Below, one piece after another: positions 637 to 28,800 of a DNA stretch of 64,000 bases (positions are counted from its first letter, which is position 1; every line of letters starts with the position of its first letter). The notes beneath the pieces are model-generated. The model was not told the origin of the DNA and made no database searches. It worked only from the letters and a program-made list of their open reading frames with translations. The stretch comes from Longimicrobium sp. GTDB taxonomy: Bacteria > Gemmatimonadota > Gemmatimonadetes > Longimicrobiales > Longimicrobiaceae. The position numbers were made by a program, and so were the translations under genes. The stretch is from the NCBI GenBank assembly GCA_036389795.1, contig DASVWD010000086.1, forward strand, positions 1 to 64,000, in the 5' to 3' direction.

Positions 637-664
637 GGGTCGGGAGACGGGGTGGGCGGGGCGC

Positions 665-1087: not shown

Positions 1088-1403
1088 CCGGCACCTCTGG
1101 TGAGTGGAAACATCTGCCCACTCGCGTGGAAAAAGCGCGCCAGCGGCGGGTTTTCGAGGCTTAATGGGCCGGGCGCGGGTCGGGGCTCGTACCTGGAAGC
1201 TAAAGCTGGGTTCCGGTCCGTGGAAGCATCGTGTCCTCCGCGGGAGGCGGAGCCGGCAACGCCCGGAGGTGGAGGCGCTCCCCGGTTTGTGAGCAATCCC
1301 GGAGAAGCGAATTCGGAGCGCCGGGCCGATTTTTCACGCCCTGCCCGCCGAGCCGGCGCTCTCCGGATCGGCCGCCGCCAGCCTCCAGCGGAAGGAGCCC
1401 CGC
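1088..1403. other. Divergent intergenic region
   Basis: A 316-base gap between a minus-strand gene and a plus-strand gene, so it should hold promoters for both. I see no clear sigma-70 boxes. The right end carries a good ribosome binding site (GGAAGGAG) for the plus-strand gene. No small gene is evident. Confidence 0.4.
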
Positions 1404-1931
1404 ATGACCACGGACGCACCGGCCCTCGCCCGCCCGACCACGACTCTGGATGCGCTCCCGGGGGCGGCGCGGGACCGCTACGCGACCGCGCTCAAGCTGT
1501 TCATGGCGGTGGTGCTGGCGCACTGGGCGGAGCACCTGGTGCAGGCGTGGCAGGTGTGGGTGCTCGGCTGGCCGCGCCACCACTCGCGGGGCGTGCTGGG
1601 GCAGGCGTTCCCGTGGCTGGTGCACTCCGAGGCGCTGCACTACGGCTACGCCGTCGTGATGCTGGCCGGCCTGTTCCTGCTGCGCGGGGCGTTCACGGGG
1701 CGGGCGGGCGCGTGGTGGATGGCGGCGTTCTGGCTCCAGGTCTGGCACCACTTCGAGCACCTGCTGCTCATCGCGCAGGCCACGCTGGGCACCAACCTGG
1801 CCGGCCGGCCCGTGCCGACGAGCGTCGTCCAGCTCTTCGTCCCCCGCATCGAGCTGCACCTGTTCTACAACACCGTCGTCTTCGTGCCGATGGTCGTGGC
1901 GCTGGTGCTACGGGCTCGGAGACGAAACTAG
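1404..1931 (+). CDS. Histidine-rich integral membrane protein
   Basis: A 175-residue membrane protein with about four hydrophobic segments (residues near 30-50, 75-95, 100-120 and 150-170). Histidines sit at membrane edges in HWAEHLVQ, HSEALHYGY, WHHFEHLLL and ELHLFYN. The spacing recalls di-metal membrane enzymes, but it does not match the fatty-acid desaturase or hydroxylase signatures, so I do not assign an enzyme. GGAAGGAG lies eight bases before the ATG and supports the start. A strong hairpin follows the gene. It appears to be a single-gene unit. Confidence 0.75.
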   Translation: MTTDAPALARPTTTLDALPGAARDRYATALKLFMAVVLAHWAEHLVQAWQVWVLGWPRHHSRGVLGQAFPWLVHSEALHYGYAVVMLAGLFLLRGAFTGRAGAWWMAAFWLQVWHHFEHLLLIAQATLGTNLAGRPVPTSVVQLFVPRIELHLFYNTVVFVPMVVALVLRARRRN

Positions 1932-1997
1932 CGTTCCCACGCTGGCGCTGTCCGGAGCGCGCCTCCGCTAGACCGAAGTGCTGGGGGATACGGCTGA

Positions 1998-2032
1998 AAG
2001 GGAGAGGGGACGCGGTGCGTCCCCTCTCCCTT
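1998..2032. terminator. Bidirectional terminator hairpin
   Basis: A perfect 16-base stem (AAGGGAGAGGGGACGC and its complement) with a three-base loop sits between converging genes. A run of three As flanks the left arm and TTC ends the right arm. It probably ends transcription from both sides. Confidence 0.75.
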
Positions 2033-2042
2033 CATGCTCTCA

Positions 2043-2417
2043 TCAGGCAGCTCGGGATGTGATCTTTCCGGCCTGCAACGAGGTGATGGGGATGAGCTCG
2101 TTCGGCCCGGGAGTGTACGCCGAGAGAGTCAGGAACTCGCTGACGGGTGCGGCTTGCATGATCGCCAGCGCGAGGTTCCGCAGATCCGTGGAGAGCTCGG
2201 CGAGCCCGGTGAGCGGGAAGCTGCGAGGCCCGATCTCCGTCTGCTGCGCCAGGAGGGAGTAGTCGAAAAGGGTCAGGCCCACCGCGGCCCGCTTGCTCTT
2301 GTCGACACGCAGCAGGATGTGCTCGTTCAACTCGATCCCGGTAGCGCTCTCGCCCGGTGCGAACGCGACGTACAGCGTATCGCTGGGCTCGTCATAGCGG
2401 ATCCGTGGCTCGGGCAT
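2043..2417 (-). CDS. DUF2283-type protein, possible antitoxin partner
   Basis: A 124-residue protein whose N-terminal half has the DUF2283 pattern (IRYDEPSDTLYVAF...GIELNEHILLRVD). In this family the short beta-rich domain often lies beside a small toxin-like protein. The C-terminal half (residues 60-124) is longer than the usual DUF2283 domain and has no recognised motif. The start is three bases after the stop of the upstream nuclease-like gene, so the two form one tight operon. An immunity or antitoxin role is inferred from the pairing alone. Confidence 0.7.
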   Translation of the reverse strand: MPEPRIRYDEPSDTLYVAFAPGESATGIELNEHILLRVDKSKRAAVGLTLFDYSLLAQQTEIGPRSFPLTGLAELSTDLRNLALAIMQAAPVSEFLTLSAYTPGPNELIPITSLQAGKITSRAA

Positions 2418-2420
2418 GGC

Positions 2421-2744
2421 TCAGCCTACCTCCTTCTGGAACGCCGTGACGACATAGTTGTTGGAGTACGGAGTCCCATCCTCGCTCTGGCCGAAGCGGA
2501 AGAGAACGATCGCCACGACGTGCGTGTTGTCCATGGGCAGGTTCGGGAAGCGTTTCGAATACCGGTACTTCTGGGGATTCAGCGAGTCCTGCAGCCGCTG
2601 TCCCGACCGGATGGCGTCCCGAAGCTCACCCTCGTGCCCATGCATCTCCGGATGGCCTTCTACGATGTGCTCCCATCGCTCGTCAGTGAGATAGATCTCG
2701 TTACCCCAACGATCGTGGACCACCCACCGTCTGCCATCCGTCAT
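2421..2744 (-). CDS. Small nuclease-like protein, possible BECR-fold toxin
   Basis: A 107-residue protein. Its N-terminus, WVVHDRWGNEIYLTDERWEHIVEGHPEM, matches the pattern of phage/plasmid-type BECR (Barnase-EndoU-ColicinE5/D-RelE) small nucleases: a WG/G-N-x-I-x-L-T strand-turn followed by RWxHI and HPE. Conserved His and Arg residues (HI, HPE, KYRYSKRF) could be catalytic. It is the first gene of a two-gene operon with a DUF2283 protein. A toxin role is family-level inference, and no activity is demonstrated. No signal peptide is present, so it should act in the cytoplasm. Confidence 0.6.
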   Translation of the reverse strand: MTDGRRWVVHDRWGNEIYLTDERWEHIVEGHPEMHGHEGELRDAIRSGQRLQDSLNPQKYRYSKRFPNLPMDNTHVVAIVLFRFGQSEDGTPYSNNYVVTAFQKEVG

Positions 2745-2833
2745 GGAGGCTTCGCAACTGAAAGGTTGGGAGAGACGAGCAGAAAGACAAGCCAGTTGTC
2801 GCCTCTCCGCCTATGAAAGGATGCTGGAAGATG

Positions 2834-2863
2834 GCCCGGGAGAGTCGTCGGACTCTCCCGGGC
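2834..2863 (-). terminator. Terminator of ettA
   Basis: A perfect 13-base stem (GCCCGGGAGAGTC and complement) with a four-base loop lies 11 bases past the ettA stop. No clear U-tract follows. Confidence 0.7.
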
Positions 2864-2873
2864 GATCCGGCTC

Positions 2874-4562
2874 TCACGCCCGCACCAGCTTCTTGTAGCG
2901 GATGCGGTGGGGGGTGTCGGCCTCGGCGCCCAGGCGGCGCTTGCGGTCGGCCTCGTACTCGCGGTAGTTGCCCTCGTGCCACACCACGCGGCCCTCGTCC
3001 TCGAAGGCCAGGATGTGCGTGCAGATGCGGTCCAGGAACCAGCGGTCGTGGCTGATCACCATGGCGCAGCCGGCGAACTCCAGCAGCGCGTCCTCCAGCG
3101 CCCGCAGCGTGTCCACGTCCAGGTCGTTGCTGGGCTCGTCCAGCAGGATCAGGTTGCCGCCACGCTGCAGCGTCTTGGCCATGTGCACCCGGTTGCGCTC
3201 GCCGCCCGAGAGGACCTTCACCGGCTTCTGCTGGTCCGATCCCCGGAAGCCGAACCAGCTGCAGTAGGCGCGCGCGTTCACCTCGCCGCGGCCCAGCCGG
3301 ATGGTGTCCTGCCCGCCCGAGATCTCCTGGTAGACGGTCTTGTCGCCGTCCAGCGTGTCGCGGCTCTGGTCCACGTAGGCCATCTCCACCGTGGAGCCCA
3401 CCTTGAGCGTCCCGCCGTCCGGCGTCTCCTTCCCGGTGATCATGCGGAAGAGCGTGGTCTTGCCGGCGCCGTTGGGCCCCACCACGCCCACGATGCCGCC
3501 CCGCGGCAGGCGGAACGAGAGGCCGTCGATCAGCAGGCGGTCCTCGTAGCCCTTGGCCAGGCTCTCGGCCACCACCACCTCGTCGCCCAGGCGGGGGCCG
3601 TTGGGGATCACGATCTCGGCGCGGGAGAGCTTCTCGCGCGGGTCCTCGGCCAGCATCTGCTCGTACGAGTGGAGCCGCGCCTTGCTCTTGGCCTGGCGGG
3701 CGCGCGGGGCCATGCGCACCCACTCCAGCTCGCGCTCCAGCGTGCGCTGGCGGGCGGACGACTGCTTCTCCTCGCGCCGGAGCCGCTCCTGCTTCTGCTC
3801 CAGCCAGCTCGAGTAGTTGCCCTTCCAGGGGATCCCCTCGCCGCGGTCGAGCTCCAGGATCCACTCGGCCACGTTGTCCAGGAAGTAGCGGTCGTGCGTG
3901 ATGGCCACGATGGTGCCCTTGAACTCGGCCAGGTGGTGCTCCAGCCAGGCCACGCTCTCCGCGTCCAGGTGGTTGGTGGGCTCGTCCAGCAGGAGCATGT
4001 CGGGCTCCTCGAGCAGCACCTTGCAGAGCGCCACCCGGCGCTTCTCGCCGCCGGAGAGCGTCTCCACGCGCGCGTCGGGCGGCGGCAGCCGGAGCGCCTC
4101 CATGGCGATGTCGATCTTGCGGTCCAGCTCCCACGCCCCCGCCGCGTCGATGGCGTCCTGCAGCCGTGCCTGCTCCTCCAGGAGCGCGTTCATCTCCTCG
4201 TCGGTGGAGACGTCGCCGAACGACATGTTCACCTCGTCGAAGCGGCGCAGCAGGTCGCGGATGTGCCGCACGCCCTCCTCCACGTTGCCGCGCACGTCGA
4301 GCGCCGGGTCCAGCTCGGGCTCCTGCGACAGGTACGAGATGCGGGTGCCCTCGGCGGGCCAGGCCTCGCCGTTGAAGTCGCGGTCGACGCCGGCCATGAT
4401 GCGCAGCAGGCTGCTCTTGCCGCTGCCGTTGGGGCCCACCACGCCGATCTTGGCGCCGGGGTAGAACGAGAGCCAGATCCCCTTCAGGATCGTGCGGTTG
4501 GGGGGGACGACCTTGGTCAGGTCCTTCATCACGAAGATGAACTTGCTCGTATCCAGAGTCAT
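2874..4562 (-). CDS. ettA: Energy-dependent translational throttle protein EttA (ABC-F)
   Basis: A 562-residue ABC-F protein, close to the usual 555 residues for EttA. Two nucleotide-binding domains are intact: Walker [10 protein letters not shown] and GPNGAGKTT, signatures LSGGEKRR and LSGGERNR, and Walker [12 protein letters not shown] and [11 protein letters not shown]. The inter-domain linker carries [15 protein letters not shown], typical of EttA. ABC-F proteins bind the ribosomal E site; EttA gates the first elongation steps according to ATP/ADP ratio. There are no membrane domains. I chose the ATG giving [17 protein letters not shown] because family homology begins there; a longer in-frame extension is unlikely. 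Confidence 0.95.
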
Positions 4563-8282: not shown

Positions 8283-8708
8283 ATGTTCCGATCGTACGTT
8301 GTGGCGTTCGCGGTCTGCTGTGCCCTCTGTCCGCGTGTCGCGAGCGCGCAGTCGACGTCCGAGCCCGCGGGGGAGGGCGGTGTACGCACGTATACGAATC
8401 CCCATCCAGGTCCCAGCCGCGGGCCCGACTGGGGATTCTCCATCGGGATGAATCCTGGTCCGCGGAACGCGTACGGCTACCCGTACGTCACCGAGATTGC
8501 GGCCCATTCCAACGCCGAGCGTGCGGGACTCGCCGTGGGCGACACCATCGTGGCCATCAACGGTCGGGACGCGCGGCAGCCGCCGCTCTTCCCCGTTCAG
8601 GAGCCGGGGACCCGGTACGTGCTGCGGGTTCGGCGCGGCGAGGAGGAACTGGAGCTTCGTTACACGTTTCCGGGGGCCACTGACATTCACGGCCGGCCTC
8701 GGCGGTGA
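8283..8708 (+). CDS. Secreted PDZ-domain protein
   Basis: A 141-residue protein with a signal peptide (MFRSYVVAFAVCCALCPRVASAQ, cleavage likely after ASA) followed by a PDZ domain. The carboxylate-binding region reads PYVTEIAAHSNAERAGLAVGDTIVAINGRD, the usual PDZ core. It has no protease domain, so it should bind peptides or partner proteins in the periplasm. The ATG has GGGAGGGG upstream. It appears monocistronic, between the DsbA remnant and the converging ADOP permease. Confidence 0.8.
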   Translation: MFRSYVVAFAVCCALCPRVASAQSTSEPAGEGGVRTYTNPHPGPSRGPDWGFSIGMNPGPRNAYGYPYVTEIAAHSNAERAGLAVGDTIVAINGRDARQPPLFPVQEPGTRYVLRVRRGEEELELRYTFPGATDIHGRPRR

Positions 8709-8828
8709 GCATGTCACCGTGCCCGGTCACTGGCCGCGGCGGCACCAGCAGCTCCATTACCTCCCGCCGCAAGCGGTCTCGTCCCTCCACTATCATCTAG
8801 CGGAGCGCGGCCGTAGCTACGCCGGTCG

Positions 8829-11504
8829 TCAATCCGACTGCAGCACGCTCCTCACGTCGAGCCCCGCCGCGCGAAGGGCTGGAATCGCGCTGGCCAGGAT
8901 CGCCACCATGAGCATGGTGCCGACCACGATCCCGAAAACGCCCGGATCGCTCGGCCGCAGCTCGAACAACATCGGCCCGACCCATCGCCCGGCCGCGATC
9001 GCGATCGCACACCCGATGGCCACACCGGTGAGCATCGCACGCACGCCCTGCATTACGACGAGCGTGACCACCCGCGCCGGGCCGGCGCCGAGCGCCAGGC
9101 GAACGCCGAGCTCATACCTCCGCTGCGTGACGCTGTAGGCCATCACGCTGTAGAGCCCCGCCGCCGCGAGAATCAGCGCCAGCGCGCCGAACGCCGTGAA
9201 CACGGTCGCGCCGACGATCCACGGGCGTATCTCGGCGTCCACCACCTCTGCGAGTGGGGTGACGGTGACGAAGGAGCTCCCCGGCATTTCGCGCTGCAGG
9301 CGGACCCGCAGCGGCTCTACGAGCCTGCTCGCGTGGTGAGCGCGCACGAAGAGGCCGCCCTCCTGCGGCTGCCACTGCGCCGTCGAGAGGTAGTAGTAGA
9401 ACAGCCCTGGCTCTGCCTGGATCGATTGCGAGTGGATGTCTTCGGCGATCCCGACGACGTACGTGCACGGGGCCGTGTCCGCGCCGACGCGCATGCACTG
9501 GCCGATCGGGTCCTGATCCGGCCAGAGGACTCTCGCCATCGACCGGCCGACGACCGCAGCCCTGGGCGCACCCTCCACGTCGGTGCTCGCGATGCCCCGG
9601 CCGCGGACGATGCGCGTGCCCATCGTCGCGAAGTAGTCCGCCGACACCGCGTTGAAGTTGAACTCACCGATCGCGCTCACCGAATCGATCCCGGGGACGA
9701 AGAGCGGCCACGAGGTTGCTCCGTCGAAAGGAACCGATTCCCGCAGCGTCGCGTGGGTGACTCCCGGAACGCTCCTCGCCGCGTCGAGCAGACGAAGCCG
9801 CAGCGCCACCATCGCGGCGCTGTCGAGGCCGACACCCCGCATGTCGAGCTCCACCCGGAGCACCGAGTCCGGATCGAAGCCCAGGCGCACGTCGCGTACG
9901 TTGCGCAGGCTCTGGACGAATAGTCCCGCGCCGACCAGCAGTACGACCGACAGAGCGCTCTGCAGCAGCACCAGCCCGGCGCGGAGCGCGCTGCGCTGGT
10001 GCGCCCCATCACGCGCCCGCGACCTGAGGTCGCCGGCCAGGCTGCCGCGGCGCAGCTGCGCCAGCGGCGCAAGCCCGGCCAGGAGGCCTGCCCCCAGCGC
10101 CACCGCAGCCGCGAAGCGCAGCGTACGCCAGTCGGTGATGAGCGCCGGCTGATCCGTGCCCGGGAGGAACGCAGCCCTCAGCACGCCACTCGCCCACACG
10201 GCTACGGCGACTCCCGCGATGCCGCCGAGCAGCGCGAGCACCAGCCCTTCCGTGAGGAGCAAACCGAGGAGACGCCGCCGGCTCACGCCCAGCGCGATGC
10301 GGACGGCGATCTCGCGGCGGCGGCTGATGGTGCGCGCCAGCACGAGATTCGCCACGTTCGCGCAGGCGATGAGCAGGACGATGATGCTCACCCCGCCCAG
10401 CCACCGGGCGGCACGCGCGACGCTCGAGGACTCCGGCCCCCGTTCGGCCAGCACGGACCCCGCGACGGCGCGCGGGCGAAGCGAGGCCAGCGGCGGGTAA
10501 CCTGGATCTTCCTCGATCTGACGCTGGAAGCTCCGCCTCAGCGCGGTGGTGAGATCCGCGTTCGCGGCGGCGAGGGTCACGCCGGGCTTCCGGCGAACGA
10601 TCATCTCGAGGCCGATCGCGTGGCTGTAGGTCGTTGCCCAATCGGGCGGTCCGGCGGTGCTGGCGTACGTCGCGACGGGGATGTACGCCGCGGGTGGCCG
10701 ATACGGCCACAGGCCGACGAACCCGTCGGGCGCGACGCCGATGATCGTGTAGACGGCGGCACCGATCTGCACCGTGGATCCAACGATGTCCTTCCGGCCG
10801 CCGAACCACGTCCTCCACGCCGTCCCGCTCAGCACCGCCACCGGTTCGGGGCGAGGTGGTGCGTCCTCGGCGGCGGTGAAGTAGCGGCCCAGCGCCGGTG
10901 GTGCGTCGAAGAATCCGAAGAACCCCGCGCTGACGACGGCGACGTTCGCGAGCCGCGTCCTCTCGCCGCTGCCGACCGCGAGGGACTTGAGGGAATAGGT
11001 GGCCGACTCGGAGAACCCCGTCGCCCATCGAGCGAGGTCGACGTACCGCGCGTACTGACCGCCCGTCAGGCTCTCCCTGCCTTCCATGGTCCGATACCGG
11101 TACACGCGGTGCACCGATGCCGGATCGACCATCCGTGCCGGCGCGCGAAAGAGCAGGCGGTCGACAAGGGAGAACATCGCCGTGTTCGCGCCGATGCCGA
11201 GGGCCAGCGTCAGGGTGGCGCCCACCGTGAAGATCGGCGACCGGCGCAGGCCGCGCGCGGCGTGCCTCGCGTCCTGCCATACGGCCTCGAGCGACGGCCA
11301 GAGCCACACATGGCGTGCTGACTCGCGCATGAGCGTCTCGTTGCCCATCGCGCGACGCGCCGCATGGCGCGCCTGGTCGGGCGGCATCCCGCGCCGGATG
11401 AGATCCTCCTCGATCATCTCGCGGTGGAACGCGACCTCGTCCGCGAGGTCGGCGTGGCACTCCGGGAGCCGAAGCCAGTAGGCCAGTCGTCGGATCAGGC
11501 GCAT
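8829..11504 (-). CDS. ADOP-family FtsX/MacB-like permease
   Basis: An 891-residue protein of the acidobacterial duplicated orphan permease type. The N-terminal ~90 residues are the permease prefix domain (ADEVAFHREMIEEDLIRRGMPPDQARHAA). Then come a transmembrane helix, a MacB periplasmic core, three FtsX helices, a second periplasmic core and three more helices ending in DVRSVLQSD. ALGIGANTAMFSLVDRLLFR and ANVANLVLARTISRRREIAVRIALG are signature stretches. No ATPase accompanies it, as is usual for the family. It lies 11 bases after the padR stop and is almost certainly repressed by that gene's product. Its substrate is unknown. Confidence 0.93.
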   Translation of the reverse strand: MRLIRRLAYWLRLPECHADLADEVAFHREMIEEDLIRRGMPPDQARHAARRAMGNETLMRESARHVWLWPSLEAVWQDARHAARGLRRSPIFTVGATLTLALGIGANTAMFSLVDRLLFRAPARMVDPASVHRVYRYRTMEGRESLTGGQYARYVDLARWATGFSESATYSLKSLAVGSGERTRLANVAVVSAGFFGFFDAPPALGRYFTAAEDAPPRPEPVAVLSGTAWRTWFGGRKDIVGSTVQIGAAVYTIIGVAPDGFVGLWPYRPPAAYIPVATYASTAGPPDWATTYSHAIGLEMIVRRKPGVTLAAANADLTTALRRSFQRQIEEDPGYPPLASLRPRAVAGSVLAERGPESSSVARAARWLGGVSIIVLLIACANVANLVLARTISRRREIAVRIALGVSRRRLLGLLLTEGLVLALLGGIAGVAVAVWASGVLRAAFLPGTDQPALITDWRTLRFAAAVALGAGLLAGLAPLAQLRRGSLAGDLRSRARDGAHQRSALRAGLVLLQSALSVVLLVGAGLFVQSLRNVRDVRLGFDPDSVLRVELDMRGVGLDSAAMVALRLRLLDAARSVPGVTHATLRESVPFDGATSWPLFVPGIDSVSAIGEFNFNAVSADYFATMGTRIVRGRGIASTDVEGAPRAAVVGRSMARVLWPDQDPIGQCMRVGADTAPCTYVVGIAEDIHSQSIQAEPGLFYYYLSTAQWQPQEGGLFVRAHHASRLVEPLRVRLQREMPGSSFVTVTPLAEVVDAEIRPWIVGATVFTAFGALALILAAAGLYSVMAYSVTQRRYELGVRLALGAGPARVVTLVVMQGVRAMLTGVAIGCAIAIAAGRWVGPMLFELRPSDPGVFGIVVGTMLMVAILASAIPALRAAGLDVRSVLQSD

Positions 11505-11927: not shown

Positions 11928-12085
11928 AAGCGAGCCAGATTTGCTGACGACGGGGGAAATTTTTCGGGGAACGGATATGGATGGTGATGCGCACAACGGT
12001 TCAGCGCCCGGGCGCAAGGCATGTCGGGGTGGCGGGCTGTGGGTCAGCCGGATCGGCGGCCGGCGCTGCGGCTGCAGGTGCCTGC

Positions 12086-12125
12086 GCCGGAGAGGGGCCC
12101 GGGAACCCGAGCGCCCCTCTCCGGC
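12086..12125 (-). terminator. Terminator of the lasso operon
   Basis: A perfect 13-base stem (GCCGGAGAGGGGC and complement) with a 14-base loop starts ten bases past the last precursor stop. There is no U-tract, so it could also protect the 3' end of the precursor mRNA. Confidence 0.65.
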
Positions 12126-12134
12126 AGGCTTCCG

Positions 12135-12272
12135 CTAGTCGACGCCCGGGAGTGTCTGCGACGGGGCCCGCGGGACGCTGCAGCCGCAGGCGTCGGTGTT
12201 CACGCCGGTGGTGCCGAGCGTGAGGGTCTGGGCCTGGCCGACTTCCAGGATCTCGGGCCGCTCGTACGGCAT
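12135..12272 (-). CDS. Lasso peptide precursor A1
   Basis: A 45-residue precursor. The leader MPYERPEILEVGQAQTLTL fits YxxPxLxxxGxxxxxTxG exactly (Ile in the Leu position), the motif read by lasso RRE proteins, with Thr two residues before the core. The core starts at Gly20: GTTGVNTD-ACGCSVPR followed by APSQTLPGVD. Asp is core residue 8, fitting a Gly1-Asp8 macrolactam. CxC follows at positions 10 and 12. GGAGG sits six bases before the ATG. It is about 90 percent identical in DNA to precursor A2, so a tandem duplication is likely. It is the last gene of the operon. Nothing shows how far the C-terminal tail is trimmed. Confidence 0.9.
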   Translation of the reverse strand: MPYERPEILEVGQAQTLTLGTTGVNTDACGCSVPRAPSQTLPGVD

Positions 12273-12348
12273 GTTCCCTCCAGCAGTGGACGGTGATGCC
12301 CCTGAAAGGGGCGAGATCGGAGGAGGCGCTCCTCCGGCGGACTTCCTC

Positions 12349-12471
12349 CTACCGCGACGTGTCCGTTCTCGGGACGCTGCAGCCGCAGGCGTCGGTGTTC
12401 ACGCCGGCGGTGCCGAGTGTGAGGGTCTGGGCCTGGCCGACTTCCAGGATCTCGGGCCGTTCGTACATCAT
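12349..12471 (-). CDS. Lasso peptide precursor A2
   Basis: A 40-residue precursor beginning MMYERPEILEVG. Its leader is identical to A1 from Tyr3 to Gly20. The core is GTAGVNTD-ACGCSVPR then TDTSR, 21 residues, with Asp at position 8 and Cys at 10 and 12. It differs from A1 by Ala/Thr at core residue 3 and by a shorter, unrelated tail. AAGGAGG lies five bases before the first of two adjacent ATG codons. The cyclase gene ends 110 bases upstream. The conserved ring and divergent tail suggest selection on the loop while the tail drifts. Confidence 0.92.
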   Translation of the reverse strand: MMYERPEILEVGQAQTLTLGTAGVNTDACGCSVPRTDTSR

Positions 12472-12581
12472 CGCTGCCTCCTTGGATTGGATGGTTATGC
12501 CCCTTGGGGGCGGGATCGGAGGGGACCCGCAGCACGTGCCCTCTCCAAGAAGCTGCGCCGCCACGCACGCCTAACACCCTC

Positions 12582-14510
12582 TCAGAGTGCAGCCGGAGTG
12601 GCGCCAGCCTCGACTTCCTCGCTCCGCGAGAGCGCGGAGCCCTCGCCAGGACCGTTCGAAGGTTCACCGGCTTCAAGCGTGCGCAGCCACAGCTCCAACG
12701 AGACCGTCCGCAGGAGTTGCGAGCTATTGACGACGATGCCGTGGCGCGCCCGCCTCAGAGCGTTTAGCAGCGCGCCGCCGTCCACCACACCGAGCGCCGC
12801 CGCCCTCGAGTCGGCGAAGAGCGGCTCCAGGCGCGGCCACTCGCGGATCAGCGCGCGGTGGAACGCTTCGTCGGGGCCGGCCTTACTGCGGCGGGTGCGC
12901 ACCTCCTCGGGGATGACGCCCCGCAGTGCGCGCCGCACCACGGAGCGGGTCTCGTGCGGACGAACGAGCTGCCCGAGCGGGATCGCCAGCGCGAACTCCA
13001 CCAGGCGCCGGTCCAGGAACGGGTAGCGCACGTCCACGTGCCCCGTGCTGGAGAGCCACTCCAAGACCGGGAAGCGCATGGCCCGCCGGATCAGCTCGTA
13101 CTGGAGCGTCTGGCTGGGGCGGCGGAAGCGCACCCCGTCCGCGGGCATCCCCACCATGCGCTCGCGCAGTCCCATCCGCCGGGCGAAGCGCGGGTCGATC
13201 CACTCGCCCAGCGGCTCCTCGCGCTGCCATGCCTGCACCCTCCGGGGCAGGAGCGGCCAGACTGCGCCGGACCACAGCGTCTTGAAGTAGGGCCAGCGGA
13301 GTGCCCGAGACCACTCCGCGGCGGCGCGCAGCAGCGCGCTCACCTTCCCCGCGGCTGCGAGGTCGGCGAGGGGGAGTGCATCGGGAGGCGTGCTCCAGAG
13401 GACATGGTCGCCGCCGATGCCGCAGAGGAGGACGCGGGCGCCGTGCGACGCCATCTCGCGCGTGACGTGGTCCTGGCGCGCCAGGAAGGAGAGCTGGTTG
13501 GCGGGGGCGTCCGGGCGGAGCGAGGCCGGGAAGGGGGCGAGGATCGGATGACGCAGCTCGGAGACGTGCAGGCCGGCCCGGCCCAGGCGTGCCTCGACTG
13601 GGGTGATGTAGCGGCGCTCGTCGGAACTGGCCGCTCCGTCGAACACGTACGAGACGGTCCGCAACTCGGGCGCCTCGACACGGCCGGCGCGCACCAGGTC
13701 GTCGGCCACGCACACCAGCGAGGTGGAGTCGAGCCCGCCGCTGAGGTTGCAGTACACGGGCGCGTCGGCGCGGAGCCGGCAGGCGACCGCTTCCTCCAGC
13801 ACCGCGGCGAAGTGCGCCTCGTACTCGGCGTCGGAGCGGTACTCGATGCGTCGCTGCGGATCCGGCGCCCAGTAGCGGGTGCACCGCGCGCCGCCACGGT
13901 CCACGACCAGCACGTGCCCGGCCGGCAGCACGCTGACGCCGCGGAAGGGCGTGGCGGGCGAGGGGCGGTTGACCAGGAAGTCGGCGAGGAACTCCTCGTC
14001 CAGCTCGGCCGAGGCGCCCAGCGAGTTCAGCAGCGGCCGGGCGCGCGAACACCAGAACAGGTGTTCGGGCGTCCAGCGGTAGTACAGCGCCCGCCTTCCC
14101 AGCGCGTCGCACGCCAGGAGGAGGCGCTCGCCGTCCGGGTCCCAGCAGGCCAGTGCGAAGTCGCCCACCATGCGCGGCAGTGCCCGGGCCCCCCGGGCGC
14201 GGAGCACCGCCAGCGCGACTTCGACGTCGGCGGCGCCCGCGCCGGGGCCGAACTCCGCGCGCAGTTCGGCGGCGTTGTCCAGCCGCCCGTCGAAGGCAAG
14301 GAGCCACCCGTCCCGCGCGGCCAGCGGCTGCTGCGCGCGGCGCGATTGGCGGTCGGTGTGGAAGGGCCGGAAGAGCATCCCCACCCGCCCGCCCCACGCC
14401 GCGCTCTCGCCGTCGGGGCCGATGTCCGCCAGGGCGACGCTCATGCGCGTCAGCACGCGGCGGGGAAGCGCGGCGCCGCCGCGCGAGTACGCCCCGGCGA
14501 GCGCGCTCAT
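12582..14510 (-). CDS. Lasso peptide macrolactam synthetase (C protein, AsnB-like)
   Basis: A 642-residue asparagine-synthetase homologue, the expected size for lasso cyclases. The N-terminal half is a class II glutaminase-like domain, but it opens MSALAGAYSR instead of MCGIxGxxxR, so the nucleophilic Cys2 is missing and glutamine hydrolysis is not expected. The synthetase half has the ATP pyrophosphatase loop NLSGGLDSTS at about residues 253-262. Its role would be to adenylate Asp8 of the core and allow attack by the Gly1 amine. The start codon overlaps the stop of precursor A3 (ATGA), showing translational coupling. The frame extends further upstream, but the ATG used here is the first with homology. 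Confidence 0.93.
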   Translation of the reverse strand: MSALAGAYSRGGAALPRRVLTRMSVALADIGPDGESAAWGGRVGMLFRPFHTDRQSRRAQQPLAARDGWLLAFDGRLDNAAELRAEFGPGAGAADVEVALAVLRARGARALPRMVGDFALACWDPDGERLLLACDALGRRALYYRWTPEHLFWCSRARPLLNSLGASAELDEEFLADFLVNRPSPATPFRGVSVLPAGHVLVVDRGGARCTRYWAPDPQRRIEYRSDAEYEAHFAAVLEEAVACRLRADAPVYCNLSGGLDSTSLVCVADDLVRAGRVEAPELRTVSYVFDGAASSDERRYITPVEARLGRAGLHVSELRHPILAPFPASLRPDAPANQLSFLARQDHVTREMASHGARVLLCGIGGDHVLWSTPPDALPLADLAAAGKVSALLRAAAEWSRALRWPYFKTLWSGAVWPLLPRRVQAWQREEPLGEWIDPRFARRMGLRERMVGMPADGVRFRRPSQTLQYELIRRAMRFPVLEWLSSTGHVDVRYPFLDRRLVEFALAIPLGQLVRPHETRSVVRRALRGVIPEEVRTRRSKAGPDEAFHRALIREWPRLEPLFADSRAAALGVVDGGALLNALRRARHGIVVNSSQLLRTVSLELWLRTLEAGEPSNGPGEGSALSRSEEVEAGATPAAL

Positions 14511-14686
14511 CGGATCGCGCTCTTCGGGCGCAGCGCGGGCCCGTCCCACTCCGGCGGGTCAATACTCGGCCTTGGCGCGGCGCATCCGCACGCGTCGACG
14601 TACGTGGGGCCGGACCCGCGCGTCACCTGCTCCACCGCACCGAGTTCCGCGAGTTCCGGGAACTCATACGCGCGCTCTCTGCCCAT
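14507..14686 (-). CDS. Lasso peptide precursor A3
   Basis: A 59-residue precursor diverged from A1/A2. The leader GRERAYEFPELAELGAVEQVTR matches YxxPxLxxxGxxxxxTxG exactly. The core starts at Gly24, GSGPTYVD-ACGCAAPR, then PSIDPPEWDGPALRPKSAIR. Asp is again core residue 8 and the Asp-Ala-Cys-Gly-Cys block is conserved, with Pro-Arg after it. The 36-residue core is long for a lasso peptide, so C-terminal trimming is possible. AAGGAGG lies just upstream. The stop overlaps the cyclase start, and the protease gene lies about 120 bases upstream. Confidence 0.9.
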   Translation of the reverse strand: MGRERAYEFPELAELGAVEQVTRGSGPTYVDACGCAAPRPSIDPPEWDGPALRPKSAIR

Positions 14687-14808
14687 GGCTCCTCCTTGGC
14701 GTGATCATGGAAGCTGGCGCTCCCGAGTCCGGAGTCAGCCGGTGAGCCGGGCGGAGCCGGTGCCGCCCCGAAGAGCCGCCCGAGGAACCGCCTCGTCCCG
14801 GCCCCGCT

Positions 14809-15264
14809 TCAGCACCGCGCGATCTCCGGGTACATCGCCTTGACCGAGGGAGAGTCGTTCACGACGACACCGTCCACCTCGGCCCACGCGTGGGCGTAGA
14901 AGGGGATTTTCTGCACCCCGACCACCAGGTCGGCGGGCACGCCGCGGAGCCGGAGAAGGCAGACCGCGGCCGCCGAGCGCTGCAGGCACCAAGCGCGCTT
15001 CAGGTAGTAGCTCTGCGCCCGGTCCACGGCCGCGCACAGCGTCCGGACCCGCACGTCGCGCGCTTCACGCGGCGCCGTGCCCAGGGTGGGACAGCCGCGC
15101 ACCAGACCGTAGAAGCGGTGGAAGCCGGCCAGCATGAGCACCATGTCGGTCGCGGCCAAGAGGAGCCACCCGCAGACGCACGCAAGCACGCCCGGCGCCG
15201 CGCTCGTCCGCGCCGCGGCGACCGCAACCGGCGGGGCGGCGGCCTGGAGGTCAGCTCCGGACAT
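14809..15264 (-). CDS. Lasso peptide leader protease (B2, transglutaminase-like)
   Basis: A 151-residue protein of the lasso B2 / transglutaminase-like superfamily. The catalytic triad is visible: Cys in RAWCLQRSAA (about residue 92), His in FYAHAWAEVDG (about 124) and Asp in VVVNDSP (about 136). It should cut the leader after the conserved Thr-x pair. An N-terminal hydrophobic segment (GVLACVCGWLLLAATDMVLMLAGF) might contact the membrane. The ATG at MSGADLQ overlaps the upstream RRE gene by 14 bases; the longer in-frame extension is antisense-like and rejected. It ends at RC with the stop 120 bases before precursor A3. Confidence 0.92.
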   Translation of the reverse strand: MSGADLQAAAPPVAVAAARTSAAPGVLACVCGWLLLAATDMVLMLAGFHRFYGLVRGCPTLGTAPREARDVRVRTLCAAVDRAQSYYLKRAWCLQRSAAAVCLLRLRGVPADLVVGVQKIPFYAHAWAEVDGVVVNDSPSVKAMYPEIARC

Positions 15265-15520
15265 CGACCAGTGCCCGGCGCTGAAGGGTGTCGACGAAGT
15301 CGGCGACGTCGCGCCGCACCTCGTCGCCGGGCGCTCCATAGCGCTCGCACAGGTGCGCCGCAATCTCAGCGAGGGTACGTCCGGCTTCCAGCTGCTGCCA
15401 GATCGCCGTCCCTACGCCATTCAGCGAGTAGTACTTTCCCTTCCTGAGGTCGAGGACCACCGCGCCGTCGGGATCGATGACCGAGCGGACGTGGCCTGGG
15501 ATGACAACGGAGTCGTTCAT
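15251..15520 (-). CDS. Lasso leader-recognition protein (B1, PqqD-like RRE)
   Basis: An 89-residue PqqD-like RiPP recognition element: MNDSVVIPGHVRSVIDPDGAVVLDLRKGKYYSLNGVGTAIWQQL, the beta-strand and helix arrangement that binds leaders, followed by LAEIAAHLCERYGAPGDEVRRDVADFVDTLQRRALV. It should bind the YxxPxL part of the three leaders and present them to B2 and the cyclase. GGAAGGAG precedes the ATG. It is the first gene of the operon and overlaps B2, as in actinobacterial split B1/B2 systems. Promoter elements upstream are not obvious. Confidence 0.92.
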   Translation of the reverse strand: MNDSVVIPGHVRSVIDPDGAVVLDLRKGKYYSLNGVGTAIWQQLEAGRTLAEIAAHLCERYGAPGDEVRRDVADFVDTLQRRALVDVRS

Positions 15521-15714
15521 GCGCCGGCTCCTTCCGGATGGAGGCGAGGCGGTCCGGGTCGAACCGGCCGCCACTGGAGCGAACATATGGGCGCCACGCC
15601 ACGTTTCAAGCAAAATTGTTCTTCGTTTTTCATCTTCGCCCGCCATCTTCAAAATTCGTCTTCATCCTCTGTCTTCACTCTTCCTACGCACGTGACGTCC
15701 CTCGAAGTGCGCCC

Positions 15715-15797: not shown

Positions 15798-18260
15798 ATG
15801 GAGACGCTCCTCACCACTCTCCTACGCGCGGGCCGCCGCCTGCGCCGCGCGCCCGGCTTCACCGCCGCCGCGGTGCTCACGCTGGCGCTCGGGATCGGCG
15901 CCACGGCCGCCGTCTTCACCCTAGTGGACGCCGTCCTTCTCCGTCCGCTGCCCTACCCCGCCGCCGAGCGGTTGGTCGCGCTCCGCCACGCCGCCCCCGG
16001 GCTGGACGTTGCCGACGCCGGACTGTCGGACGGCACCTACCTGCACTACCGGGCGCACAACCGCGTCCTCGAAGCGATGGGCGTGTGGGTGGAGAACGTG
16101 GTCAACGCCACCGACGGCGATCCCGAGCGGGTGCAGGTCGCGCTGGTCACGCCCGGCGTCTTCGGCGCGCTGGGCGTGACGCCCGCGCTGGGGCGGCTCT
16201 TCACCCCGGATGATGCCCTCCCCGACGCGACGCCCGTGGTGGTGATCAGCCACGCCTTCTGGATGCGGCGCTACGGCGGAGATCCTGGGATCGTGGGCCG
16301 CTCTATCGAGCTGAACCGGCTCCCTCGAAAGGTGGTGGGGGTGCTCCCGCCCGCGTTCGACTTCCCCCGCCCGGAGACGCAGGTGTGGTACGCGCTCCCC
16401 GTACAGGCGACCGAGTCCGGGATTCACGCCCTCTACCTGGGCTCGGTGGGGCGGCTCAGGCCCGGGGTGAGCCCCGCCGCCGCCGAGGCCGACCTGCGTC
16501 GGCTCACCGCTGCCCTCCCCGAGGCGTACGGCGACGCCACGCCAGAGCTGCTGCGCGAGTCCGGCCTGCGTCCGGTCGTGGTGCCGCTGAAGGAGGCGTT
16601 GGTGGGCGACGTCCGCCCGGCGCTGATGATCCTGCTGTGCACCGCGGCCTTCGTCCTCCTGATCGCATGTGCCAACGTGGCCACGCTCTTCCTGGCGCGC
16701 GCCGAGCGGCAGCAAGGAGAGGTTGCGGTGGAGCGGGCGCTGGGGGCGGGCGGGGTCGACCTGGCCGCGCGCTTCCTGGGAGAGGCGATGCTGGTCGCGG
16801 GGGCGGGGGCCGCCCTGGGGCTCGCGCTGGCCGAAGTGGCGGTGCGGGCGCGCTTCGGCTTCGCGCCCGGCGAGATCCCTCGCCTCCACGAGGTCCGGGT
16901 GAGCGCGGCCACCATGGCGCTGGTGCTGACTGCCGCGGTGGTGGCGGCCGCGCTCCCGGCGACTCTGGGGCTGCTGCGCGCCGCCCGCGGGCGACTCACC
17001 GCCGCGCTTTCGGGGACGCGGTCCACCTACGGCCCCCATACGCGCCGGGTGCAGGGCCTCCTCGTCCTGCTGCAGGTGGCGCTCGCGCTGGCGCTGCTGA
17101 TCGGATCGGCGGTGATGGTGCAGAGCTTCCGCCGGTTGCGCGCGGTCGAGCTCGGGTTCGACCCCCGGAGCACCCTGGCGGTGGAGGTGTCACTCCCCTT
17201 CCGCGAATACCCCGCGTACCAGGACGGGGCGCGCTTCCACCACGCCCTCCTCGCCCGCCTGCGGCAGTTCCCGGGCGTGCAGGCCGCCGAGGTGGCGGGC
17301 ACCCTGCCGCTCTCCCCCGTCCCGGAGTTCCTCGCCTCGCCCGTCGCGCCCGACCCGGCGGAGGCCGGCGTGCGCGTGACGCCGCCCATGGCCTCGCTCA
17401 ACCTCGCCTCGCCCGGCTACTTCGCGGCCATGCGCATCCCGCTTCGGCGGGGACGCGGCTTCGAGCCCACCGACCTCGCGGGCGGCGCGCCGCCGGTGAT
17501 CCTGAGCGAAGCGCTGGCGCGCGCGCTGTTCCGCGGCGAGAACCCGGTCGGGCGGTGGGTGCGCGTGGGCGTGGACGGCCCGGCGTACGCCGTGGCCGGC
17601 GTGGCCGAAGACGTTCCCGGAGAATCGCTGACCGGTGGGGGAGCGCGAGCGCTGTACTTCCCCGTGATTGACGACCCGCGTCTCCCCGGCGGCGCGGAGG
17701 TCCCGGTGCCCGTCTACCCGCGCGACATGACCGTGGTGGTGCGCGCCGCCGTCCCCCCAGCCACCCTGGCCGCGGCGGTGCGCCAGGCCGTGCGCGAACT
17801 CGACCCGAAGGTGCCGCTGGCCCGCGTGCGCACGCTGGAGGAGGTGGTGGAGGCCGCCTCCGCGCGCACCCGGCTCACCATGCTCCTGCTGCTCGCGGCA
17901 GCCGCCTCCGCCCTCTTCCTGGGGGTGATCGGGATCTACGGTCTGGTCTCGTACACGGTGGGCGCCCGCACCCGCGAGATCGGTGTGCGGCTCGCGCTGG
18001 GGGCCACCCCGGGCGCGGTGCGCCGGATGGTCGTGCGGCAGGGGGTGGTGCTGGCCGCCGGCGGGATCGCGGCCGGGCTCCTCCCCGCGTTCGCGCTCAC
18101 CCGCATCCTGCGCGGGCTCCTGTATGGGGTCAGCCCCAGCAGCCCGGCCGCGTACGTGACCATGTCGGCGCTCCTCTTCGTTGTGGTACTGGGCGCCACC
18201 TTCGTCCCGGCACGCCGCGCCGGCCGCGTCGACCCGGCAGCCGCGCTCAAGGCCGAGTGA
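15798..18260 (+). CDS. FtsX/MacB-like ABC permease (ADOP type without prefix domain)
   Basis: An 820-residue duplicated permease. It opens with LRRAPGFTAAAVLTLALGIGATAAVFTLVDAVLLRPLPYP, the FtsX/MacB start, then a MacB periplasmic core, three helices (ANVATLFLARAERQQGEVAVERALGAGG), a second core and three helices ending VDPAAALKAE. There is no ATPase and no N-terminal permease prefix domain, unlike the permease at 8.8 kb. It is divergent from the lasso operon and could be an export or self-protection partner, but such permeases are abundant in these genomes, so the link is only positional. Confidence 0.9.
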   Translation: METLLTTLLRAGRRLRRAPGFTAAAVLTLALGIGATAAVFTLVDAVLLRPLPYPAAERLVALRHAAPGLDVADAGLSDGTYLHYRAHNRVLEAMGVWVENVVNATDGDPERVQVALVTPGVFGALGVTPALGRLFTPDDALPDATPVVVISHAFWMRRYGGDPGIVGRSIELNRLPRKVVGVLPPAFDFPRPETQVWYALPVQATESGIHALYLGSVGRLRPGVSPAAAEADLRRLTAALPEAYGDATPELLRESGLRPVVVPLKEALVGDVRPALMILLCTAAFVLLIACANVATLFLARAERQQGEVAVERALGAGGVDLAARFLGEAMLVAGAGAALGLALAEVAVRARFGFAPGEIPRLHEVRVSAATMALVLTAAVVAAALPATLGLLRAARGRLTAALSGTRSTYGPHTRRVQGLLVLLQVALALALLIGSAVMVQSFRRLRAVELGFDPRSTLAVEVSLPFREYPAYQDGARFHHALLARLRQFPGVQAAEVAGTLPLSPVPEFLASPVAPDPAEAGVRVTPPMASLNLASPGYFAAMRIPLRRGRGFEPTDLAGGAPPVILSEALARALFRGENPVGRWVRVGVDGPAYAVAGVAEDVPGESLTGGGARALYFPVIDDPRLPGGAEVPVPVYPRDMTVVVRAAVPPATLAAAVRQAVRELDPKVPLARVRTLEEVVEAASARTRLTMLLLLAAAASALFLGVIGIYGLVSYTVGARTREIGVRLALGATPGAVRRMVVRQGVVLAAGGIAAGLLPAFALTRILRGLLYGVSPSSPAAYVTMSALLFVVVLGATFVPARRAGRVDPAAALKAE

Positions 18261-24583: not shown

Positions 24584-25321
24584 TCACAGGCTGTTGCAGT
24601 CGGTGTCCGCGGAAGTCGCGTCCGAGGCGCCGTCCATGCTCGCCGTGCCGGACGCCACCGACACCGTGTACCCGCCGCCCACCGTGCCCGGCGTGGTGAT
24701 GGTGATCCTTCCGTTGGTGTCGGTGCGGTACCAGGGAACGGCGCGGCCGCTGAGCAGTGTCTTCGTCTGCGTGTGCACATGGCCGTACCCGTTGCTGCTG
24801 CCGACCCCCATCGTCACGTACGCGGGCGTCACCAGATCGAGCAGGCGGCTGGTGATCCCGTTGCAACTGCCGTGGTGGTCGGCCTTCAAAACGTCGACGT
24901 CCATCCCCGGACTGCTATCGTAGGATGCCGTGTTGTCGAACCAGTCGATGGCCTCGTGCTCCGCGTCCCCCGCCATCCACATCGTGAACGACGCGGAGTT
25001 GGGGCCTACGAGCTTCGCGACCACCGAGCGGTTGTTCTCGTTGGCATCGGTGGTCTTCGGCTTCAGGACGTGCAGTCGCGCGCCGCCTTCCAGCAGGAAA
25101 ATGCAGACCGAGCTGCCCGTCCCGCAGGGGTCGTCCGCGTCCCGGTAGTCGAGCGCGCCACGGCCGGCGCGTGCGTTCAGACTGTCGCGCAGCTCCGTGA
25201 TCGTTGTCCCGGAGTTCGTGTTCTTCGTCTCCAGGAAGACCGAGACGTCGATGTCGTGCGAGAGACCTTCAGGAACTCGCGCAGGCTGGCGAGGTGGTCC
25301 AGGTGACCGTGGGTGTTATAC
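24584..25321 (-). pseudogene. ComEC/Rec2-type metallo-beta-lactamase hydrolase, broken
   Basis: Two reading frames together encode the middle and end of a ComEC-like MBL hydrolase: NTHGHLDHLASLREFLKVS in one frame, then HDIDVSVFLETKNTNSG... onward to VLKADHHGSCNGITSRLLDLVTPAYVTMGVG in another. The frame changes near 25263, so a frameshift is required. The expected N-terminal DVGQGDA strand is missing: just upstream of NTHGH the sequence runs into a GTAGATTCCTCGG-type repeat. The longest open frame starts at a GTG at 25024. The C-terminus ends in a Ser/Thr/Gly-rich tail. Truncation plus frameshift argue that it is dead. Confidence 0.75.
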
Positions 25322-25352
25322 CGTTTTCGAGATTCGCTGTGCATTGGGAAGC

Positions 25353-25438
25353 TGTCATTCCGAGTGGAGCCCGATGCGCTGAGCTCGCGTTCGCCACCGA
25401 AGTCGGGCGGGCTCCCGAGGAATCTACTCGCGGCCGGC
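25353..25438 (-). repeat. GTAGATTCCTCGG...GGAATGACA repeat, copy 1
   Basis: Reverse-strand copy running from GAGTAGATTCCTCGGG to CTCGGAATGACA. It abuts the broken ComEC-like gene and faces copy 2, forming an inverted pair across about 200 bases of the gene-free stretch 25322-25801. Confidence 0.7.
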
Positions 25439-25481
25439 AGGAGGCCGGACCGATGCACGAAGCCAGCGTCCGGGCGGGGTG

Positions 25482-25559
25482 AGTAGATTCCTCGGGCGCC
25501 GCCCAGCTGAGGTGTGAAGTGAAATCCGGATCGGTGCCGCGGCGCCGCTCGGAATGACA
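25482..25559 (+). repeat. GTAGATTCCTCGG...GGAATGACA repeat, copy 2
   Basis: Shares the ends GAGTAGATTCCTCGGG and CTCGGAATGACA with copies at 25.35 kb (opposite strand) and 48.25 kb, with a variable GC-rich middle. Confidence 0.7.
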
Positions 25560-25633
25560 TGGTTCGCGAAAGGACCGGATTGCACACTGATTCCTGGAAT
25601 TCGGTATTACTGTTTGAACCAGAACGGAATAGC

Positions 25634-25714
25634 CTCACGCAGAGTCAGCAGAGGCAGCAGAGGAAACCACGCCGGGCGGTGAGTTCTCTGCTGCCTCTGC
25701 TTCCTCTGCGTGAG
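25634..25714. repeat. Long intergenic palindrome (CACxCAGAG family)
   Basis: Twenty-nine-base arms with two mismatches, built from near nine-base units (CAGAGGCAG type). It belongs with the palindromes near 7.65 kb and 31.9 kb. Arms 25634-25662 and 25686-25714. Confidence 0.75.
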
Positions 25715-25741
25715 AAAGGCGGTTGTCGTTCGTTCAGAAAG

Positions 25742-25773
25742 CGGGCGGCCCCGAAGAGCTTCGGGGCCGCCCG
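25742..25773 (-). terminator. Terminator of the multicopper oxidase gene
   Basis: Perfect 14-base stem CGGGCGGCCCCGAA / complement with a GAGC loop, 28 bases past the stop. The minus-strand tail reads CTTTCTG. Confidence 0.75.
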
Positions 25774-25801
25774 TTGTGCATCACCGCGTCCTACCCGCGC
25801 C

Positions 25802-28800
25802 TCACCAGGTGGGCCAGCCGCCGTTGGGGACCGCCACGTACGGCACGATCCGCAGGATCCCCCAGAGCCCGCCGTCGAACAGGAACGAGCTCTGGTCGCG
25901 GTACAGGTAGTCGCCCAGCACCCCGTACTGCCCGCCGCCGCTCGGGATGCGCAGGTCCAGGTGGTTGGTGGGGCCGTGGCCCCACGCGGCGCCCTTCAGC
26001 TCCGAGAGCGGGTTCTCGGTGCCCCACTGCCCGTAGAACCAGTCGCGCAGCGGCGGCAGCTCCCGCCAGGCGTGCCCGTGCACCTGCATCACGTGGTTGC
26101 GGGCGTGGCCGCCCGGCTCCAGCACCCGGAACACCACGCGCTTCCCCGCCTCGTGCGTGAACACGGGCGTCTGCGGGTCGCCGCCCACCTGCACGTTGCT
26201 GAGCGAGTTGCGGAAGTTGAAGCCGCGCGTCTGCTCCAGCGGCGTGTTCGGCGCGAAGCCCATGCGGAACCAGAGGGGCTCGGTCCGGTAGTTCAGCCCC
26301 TTCTGCCCCGAGTCCTCCGGGTCTTCGGCTTCCGCCAGGTTCGGGATCGGCGCCCCGTTGCCGAAGCGCAGGTTGAGGTTGTCCTGGAAGAGGAGGACGA
26401 ACTCCTGGAACGCCTTCACGCCCGAGCCGTCGTCGTACACCAGCCGGGCCGCGGCGCGCGAGGCACCCTGGCCCGCGCCGGACATCCCCTCCTCCCACCA
26501 GGCGGCCTGCGGCTCCACGATCAGCGCTCCGACCAGCCCCTTGCCGGGCTGCTCCACCGGGTCGGCGGGCGACAGGTTCACCGCGCCGAAGTCCACCGGC
26601 GTGGCCTTGAGCGTCCCGTTCGGCTGCAGCGTCAGGTCGCCCGCGTACCACTGATACGTCACCGAGCCCCCCGGGGCGGCCGTCTGCACCGGGTTGGTGC
26701 CCACGTTCATCCCGTCGCCGCGCGTGACGTCGTAGGAGAGCAGCTGCGGGTGCAGCCCCACGTGCGACGAGGGCCGGACGTGGTTGGCGTTGAAGCGGTC
26801 CACGATCATCGGCAGCGTGTTGTAGCCGTCCAGCTCGGGGACCGTGGCCGGGAGCCGGTTGCGCAGCACCACCTCCATGCACATGCTGGCGTTGGTGCGC
26901 AGGATGAGGGGCTCCACCGGCACCCCCGGCAGGAGCTTGCCGGCAGCGTCCAGGTCGCTGGTGCGCACGTACAGGATCCCCGTGGGGTCGTGCAGCGGCC
27001 CCACCCCCGCCGCTCCCGGGCGCGAGTTGTAGGTGAGGGTGCCGCCCGGGAGCGCGTCGCGCGCCAGCACCGCCGTCACGTCGTACCGGACCGGGGCGTA
27101 CGTCTTGGGGCAGACGCCGTTGAAGTCGCCCGCGTTGGCGATGGTGAAGTTGCCGCCGGTGTTATTGGGGAGGTCCAGCAGCGCCGTGTTCCCGCGGACG
27201 TAGCCGCGCAGGATCCCCCACATCCCGTTCCAGAGGTCGTCGGTGGCCGAGCCGCCCTTGTACAGGTAGTCGGCCTGGCTCCCCACGAAGTTCTTGGGCA
27301 GGGGCGGGAGCACGAACTCGTAGTGCTCGCTGATCCCCATCATCTGGCTGGCCCTGAGGCCCGAGGTGCTGTCGGACGGCTCGAAGAGCCAGCGCGGGGT
27401 GTGCATGCTGAAGTTGTGCCCCTCCTCGTGCGCGCCCACCAGCACGCGCACCTGGATGCGGTCGCCCTCCTTGGCCCGCATCAGCGGCGTGAAGGGGTCG
27501 CCCCCTCCCACCCCGCCGGTGAGCGGCCGGTAGAAGCCGGGCTGCACGTTGAAGCGCGCGTCCGCCCGGTCGGTGCGGCTCTGGAAGGCGTAGGCCAGGT
27601 CGCCCGCCAGCCCCGCGGCCTGCGCGTTGGTGGCCGGGTCGCGCACCCGGAGCGCGATCGGCTCGTTGCGGTAGTTCACCGTCATGGTGCCGGGATCGTC
27701 GGCCGAGAGGAGCTCCGGGCACGGCAGGTTGAGCGAGACGGCCACGCCCTCGTCGGGGCTCGGGCAGTGCCCCTTGCGGACGGGCGGCTGCAGCAGGTTC
27801 GGGAGCGCGTCCTCGAACTTCCCCGCCGGGTTGACGGCGTTGGCCGGGTCCGCGATCCCCACCGTGGTGACGCCGGTGGCGCGGTCGGTGAAGGTCTTGG
27901 GCGCCAGGTTGGCCTCGGCCGTGTAGGCCAGGGTGAAGTCGGCGATCTGGACGTTGAACTCGCGGTAGCTCGAGTCTGCCAGCGCCGTGAGGATGTCGGC
28001 CCGCCAGCTGGTGGGGCCGCCGTCCAGGGCGCGGGTGCCGAAGAAGACGCCCGTCTCCGGGTCGCGCCAGCGCGAGCCCGCCGGCTCGGTCACCAGCCCC
28101 GCGTACAGCCCGTTCTGCTGGTGGGTGGAGGGGCCGAAGTGGTCGTGCGTGAACACGGTCCGGAGCGTCCGGTCCACCCCCTGCTTGTTGCGGAGGTCGT
28201 CCACGAACCAGCGCTGGATCGTCTCCTGCGCCCCGATCCACTCGCCGTTCGGGCCGCTGCCGAAGAACGGGTGCGCGCGGGCCACGGGGCAGGTCCAGGT
28301 GCCGTCGCGCGGGTCTCCCGACGCCACGCCCGCGCAGCCGTTCTGCCGGCGGATCGCCTCCACCCGCTCGCGCGTCTCGCCCGGCGAGAAGCTCCCGTCC
28401 TCGTAGTTGAAGCCGTTGGCCGCGCCGTCGGAGCTGGTGACGTCGAACTTCACCAGGTGGATGTGCTGCCCGATCACGTCGGTGGGCGTCCTCACCTGGA
28501 AGTCGTCCAACTGGTACTCCTTGGGCACCAGGTTCACCAGGTGGAAGGTGATGCAGTCACCGGTGTTGGCGCGGAAGAAGAGCGGCTCGGGCGGGCGCAC
28601 GGCCAGGCGGAACGAGTCCACGTCGGCCCACAGGCTGATCATGCGGTGCTGCGGGAAGTGCCACCCGGCCTTGTTGAACTTCGCGTCGATCTGGATGTCG
28701 GCCGCCTTGTAGGTGCGCGGGCTCCCCGTGGGCCGGCCCAGGTCGTCCACGCACGGGTCGGCGAAGGGCGCGCCCTCCACCGCGGGGCGTCCGTTGGTGA

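Follow-up and report, generated by a model that had tools for sequence, protein, structure and literature searches.

A lasso peptide operon, probably acquired horizontally, with three precursors of a CxC core family in Longimicrobium sp.

We analysed a stretch of 64,000 nucleotides from Longimicrobium sp. (GenBank assembly GCA_036389795.1, contig DASVWD010000086.1, positions 1 to 64,000), hereafter the window. On its minus strand, from 15520 to 12135, six open reading frames (ORFs) follow each other in the order B1, B2, A3, C, A2, A1. With a probability of roughly 85%, we consider that they constitute a complete lasso peptide operon, probably acquired horizontally, whose products would be class-IV-like with a possible disulfide between two cysteines of the tail (Cys-x-Cys, CxC). 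An initial annotation of this DNA had proposed the same genes at the same place and in the same order, and the families were confirmed by matches to PF05402 (B1), NF033537 (B2) and PF00733/PF13537 (C). Judged by sequence, the lasso operon is genuine, and a three-precursor operon is well supported because B1, B2, C, the leaders, Thr(-2), Gly1, Asp8 and the conservation of the small ORFs in homologous loci all agree. What sets it apart is not the gene order but the family of CxC cores, together with the affinity of the cyclase to those of Acidobacteriota. Both of these real peculiarities were missed by the initial annotation.

The three precursor genes, predicted earlier with 59, 40 and 45 codons, were found with these lengths: A3 (14507..14686, minus strand, 59 aa) has a core of 36 aa that starts GSGPTYVDACGC, A2 (12349..12471, minus strand, 40 aa) a 21-aa core, GTAGVNTDACGCSVPRTDTSR, and A1 (12135..12272, minus strand, 45 aa) a 26-aa core, GTTGVNTDACGCSVPRAPSQTLPGVD. 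All three leaders fit the motif Y..P.[IL]...G.....T.G with identical spacing. The initial annotation had described an exact fit to YxxPxLxxxGxxxxxTxG; the motif and its spacing hold, but Leu is found only in A3, and A1 and A2 have Ile at motif position six. Thr(-2), Gly1 and Asp8 are present in three out of three precursors, as had been claimed for the latter two residues, and each core carries Asp8-Ala9-Cys10-Gly11-Cys12 (DACGC) at the predicted ring closure, which places two cysteines in every tail. The joint pattern of leader and DACGC had three occurrences in the window and none in any of 100 dinucleotide shuffles; this comparison is not blind, as the pattern was derived from these same precursors. 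A1 and A2 are tandem duplicates (102 nt at 95% identity, spacing 199 nt), and a 16-nt element upstream of both is repeated at equal spacing. Of the changes that separate them over 33 codons, three are synonymous and one is non-synonymous; after this stretch the tails diverge. Between A3 and A1 only 6 of 33 codons are identical, with DACGC and Pro-Arg retained.

Similar precursors were absent from 154 genomes of the window's order and 395 of its phylum, apart from weak matches in other Gemmatimonadota that on inspection look like chance. The exact DACGC pattern had 0 matches in a collection of 84,980 species genomes, in which the window's own genome is possibly not included, and no member of the precursor family was found in viral contigs. 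The wider D-[AGS]-C-x-C family was found only via a search with B2, and its nearest relatives are in Acidobacteriota. Five precursors, two at locus L081 (Thermoanaerobaculia) and three at locus L083, combine the leader seen in the window with a D-[AGS]-C-x-C core and lie beside homologues of B1, B2 and C; the L083 genome falls within the phylum drawn around the L081 genome and is therefore treated as acidobacterial. Identities to the window for B1, B2 and C, respectively, are 50%, 53% and 46% at L081, 41%, 49% and 46% at L083, and 48%, 60% and 45% at a third locus, L082, whose precursor is without CxC. The initial annotation had named the loss of the small ORFs from orthologous loci as evidence that would count against the operon; at L081 and L083 the homologous loci keep them. 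Searches of 396, 297, 149 and 193 genomes (overlapping sets) gave no fourth genome with the D-[AGS]-C-x-C family, which thus appears rare in the sampled genomes. An ABC exporter directly follows the precursors at L081 and L082, and none was present in the stretch examined at L083 and at several loci of the window's order. At L083 the CxC-bearing precursors are followed by a PCYCGC-domain protein (8703-9167; PF13798, function unknown). In a Pyrinomonadaceae locus (L086, 8327-8670) two short ORFs resembling precursors, without the Y..P and Thr(-2) features, lie after the cyclase.

The eight precursors of the window, L081 and L083 share nine invariant columns, Y, E, P, E, T, G, D, C and C, and the middle residue of the CxC varies (G, D or E). 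If the Asp preceding [AGS]-C is the acceptor, as we presume, it would be residue 8 in the window and residue 9 in L081 and L083; one L083 precursor has Phe at position 8, which therefore cannot be the acceptor there. Class IV lasso peptides are defined by a tail-tail disulfide (PMC6784204, PMC13352647), and since Cys10 and Cys12 both lie in the tail, their oxidation would give such a bond. The strongest competing explanation, to which we give somewhat less than an even chance, accepts a macrolactam peptide but holds that the CxC forms no tail disulfide and is instead reduced, metal-binding or modified by an enzyme encoded elsewhere. A conserved pair of cysteines around a free middle residue is what a ligand pair might look like, the scan of neighbouring genes gave no recognisable thiol oxidoreductase, and the PCYCGC-domain protein adjoins the precursors at L083. 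More tentatively, the D-[AGS]-C-x-C peptides might make up a distinct lasso subfamily present in two phyla via transfer, in which sister cyclases make 8-residue rings in the window and 9-residue rings in its relatives, and the CxC forms a disulfide or holds a metal at the ring exit, as an extreme class IV or beyond the four disulfide classes described so far; we regard this broader proposal as conceivable but rather unlikely.

In a cyclase tree of 29 rows (IQ-TREE, careful setting) the window's C grouped first with the cyclases of L081, L083 and L082 (98/95) and, at the next level, with further acidobacterial cyclases (97/99), and a second cyclase of the same genome (L037) grouped with Gemmatimonadota. 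Forcing the window's C into the Gemmatimonadota clade made the tree 44 log-likelihood units worse and was rejected with a p-AU of 0.009, a value that is somewhat optimistic, as the constrained grouping was chosen after a first quick tree. Transfer from Acidobacteriota would be the simplest reading of this tree. All plasmid cyclases were below 60% identity to C (27-31% in the rows listed). Copies of a stretch of about 290 bp in the window (25315-25608), 94-95% identical to it, occur on at least eight further contigs of the genome, and the flanking genes match same-genus genomes, so the contig belongs to this genome and contamination was judged unlikely. Nearby, an ORF of 1812 codons (25559-30997) has no Pfam match; within this genome and its family, its DNA has several paralogues at 71-83% identity. 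That the cluster is instead an ancient paralogue of Gemmatimonadota, retained in this genome while its relatives lost it, seems unlikely to us: the 45-46% identity of C to its homologues does mean that any transfer, in whichever direction, is old or from an unsampled donor, but the position of C inside the acidobacterial clade, the rejected union with Gemmatimonadota and the lack of similar precursors in the searched genomes of the order and phylum argue against it.

The three enzymes belong to families expected of a lasso operon. B1 (15251..15520, minus strand, 89 aa) is a PqqD-like recognition element (RRE) of ribosomally synthesized and post-translationally modified peptides (PF05402, 77 bits). 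It scored 61.6 bits against NF033530 (lasso_PqqD_Strm), under the cut-off of 70, and matches the solved RREs TbiB1 (E 2.8e-10) and TfuB1. B2 (14809..15264, minus strand, 151 aa) is a transglutaminase-like leader peptidase that scored 78.9 bits against NF033537 (lasso_biosyn_B2; curated cut-off 33) and also matches PF13471; no sequence match was found among solved structures. It carries Cys93, His125 and Asp137, with spacings of 32 and 12 that equal what we take to be those of the McjB triad. C (12582..14510, minus strand, 642 aa) is an asparagine-synthetase-like lasso cyclase that matches PF00733 and PF13537, both over cut-off, has an SGGLDS motif at 257 and lacks the Cys2 that an active glutaminase would have. 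It adjoins B2 and grouped in the tree with cyclases of other B2-linked loci.

In lasso peptide biosynthesis the RRE presents the leader, the peptidase cleaves it, and the cyclase adenylates an acidic residue and forms an isopeptide bond around the threaded tail. By analogy, B1 would bind the Y..P.[IL] leader and present it, and B2 would cut after Thr(-2)-x, before Gly1. C would then adenylate the side chain of Asp8 and join it to the amine of Gly1, giving a ring of eight residues that presumably closes around the tail. Cys10 and Cys12, if oxidised, would form a tail-tail disulfide with one residue between the cysteines. A ring that closes on an unthreaded tail would yield a branched cyclic peptide instead of a lasso. 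Threading is invisible in sequence, and the ring is followed by small residues (Ala, Cys, Gly), among which neither A1 nor A2 offers an obvious bulky plug; yet B1, B2 and C are homologous to lasso enzymes, a family that generally gives threaded products, and we think an unthreaded product improbable. As a guess, the products may play a role in competition or signalling.

The layout of the genes is compact. The B1 and B2 ORFs overlap, the A3 stop codon and the C start codon share the sequence ATGA, and each of A1, A2 and A3 has an ATG start and a Shine-Dalgarno-like sequence. A promoter-like site, TTGAAA-16-TATGTT (15582..15609, minus strand), lies upstream of B1 with a consensus score of 9/12; the consensus scan gave two sites in the region against 0.1 expected, which is weak evidence of function. 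A strong hairpin is located 3' of A1 (12056..12137, minus strand; -53.6 kcal/mol, z -3.24 against shuffles). It is without a U-tract and a terminator scan found none, and it is possibly the end of the transcript. We infer that the six genes are on one transcript. A scan of the neighbours with Pfam placed a PadR gene and a MacB/FtsX-like permease beyond the hairpin, and because of the hairpin these are probably separate from the operon. MacB/FtsX-like permeases occur on both flanks of the operon (15798-18260 and 8829-11504), and one is also found directly upstream of B1 at L083. The case for these permeases (ADOP type) as exporter or immunity proteins was found weak, as this family has 38 matches in the genome and chance is plausible. 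Short ORFs are common as spurious frames in GC-rich sequence, but that the small ORFs are such frames and the enzymes act on another substrate is very improbable, given the three joint motifs against none in the shuffles, the two further genomes in which homologous precursors adjoin homologous enzymes, the Shine-Dalgarno sites and the ATGA coupling of A3 to C.

Several points weigh against a complete lasso operon with class-IV-like products, or against its acquisition. The cyclase scored 262 bits against the lasso cyclase model NF033535, under its cut-off of 525 (the model is typed by NCBI as 'exception'), and with the lasso leader model NF033521 all three precursors remained under the cut-off of 19 (A3 17.2, A2 15.0 and A1 14.6 bits). 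The A3 core, with 36 residues, is longer than pandonodin with its 33 (PMC13352647). No D-type ABC exporter adjoins the operon, and the optimism of the p-AU value bears on the transfer. Finally, the lasso product, its threading and the disulfide are predictions from the genes.

The initial annotation had also considered that the gene order differs from the usual A-C-B, which is the arrangement of Proteobacteria-type clusters. This stands for A3, whose position between B2 and C is the only unusual one, and fails for the precursors after C, which are usual in the window's order. Among its B1-B2-C loci with an identified precursor, the precursor lies directly after C in L037, L038, L040, L042, L044 and L045, with three after C in L037, two in L044 and three in L045. 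The same holds for L092 (labelled Gemmatimonadetes) and L102 (labelled Gemmatimonadales); at L043 the apparent precursor is upstream of B2, and at L041 no precursor was identified. L037 is a second lasso cluster of the same genome (contig C136, about 350-3720) with B1-B2-C and then three precursors, whose cores have Glu8 and no CxC. A published Acidobacteria cluster has the order B1-kinase-B2-C-A1-A2 (PMC9064862). Gene order as the main novelty was therefore ruled out.

If the cluster works, it would offer one cyclase with three natural substrates of different tail lengths and a family of CxC cores on which the disulfide or metal chemistry of lasso peptides could be tested. It would also be a probable example of a lasso cluster transferred between phyla. 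The expectation of a little-studied phylum was supported. By title and abstract in the partial literature searched, no lasso peptide was characterised from Gemmatimonadetes or Longimicrobium.

Compared with known systems, the operon resembles split-B lasso clusters with YxxPxL leaders in its separate B1 and B2, AsnB-like C, YxxPx[IL] motif, Thr(-2), Gly1 and acidic residue 8, and differs from them by the DACGC core, by having three precursors, of which A3 lies between B2 and C, and by the lack of an adjoining D exporter. The six loci of the window's order named above with precursors directly after C share B1-B2-C and the leader spacing and have one to three precursors after C, whereas their cores have Glu8 and no CxC and their cyclases fall in a Gemmatimonadota clade of their own. 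L081 and L083 have the same D-[AGS]-C-x-C precursor family (C 46%, B2 49-53% and B1 41-50% identical), but the presumed acceptor Asp is at position 9, the precursors lie only after C, and L081 has the exporter after them. The Acidobacteria metagenomic clusters 482.1 and 44.1 (PMC9064862) likewise have B1, B2, C and then the precursor(s); 482.1 differs in containing a kinase and in its residues at -2, and 44.1 in its ABC transporter genes. The class IV peptides LP2006, pandonodin and felipeptins have two tail cysteines, as do the cores described here, in which Cys10 and Cys12 lie at +2 and +4 from the acceptor, separated by one residue, and the disulfide is a prediction.
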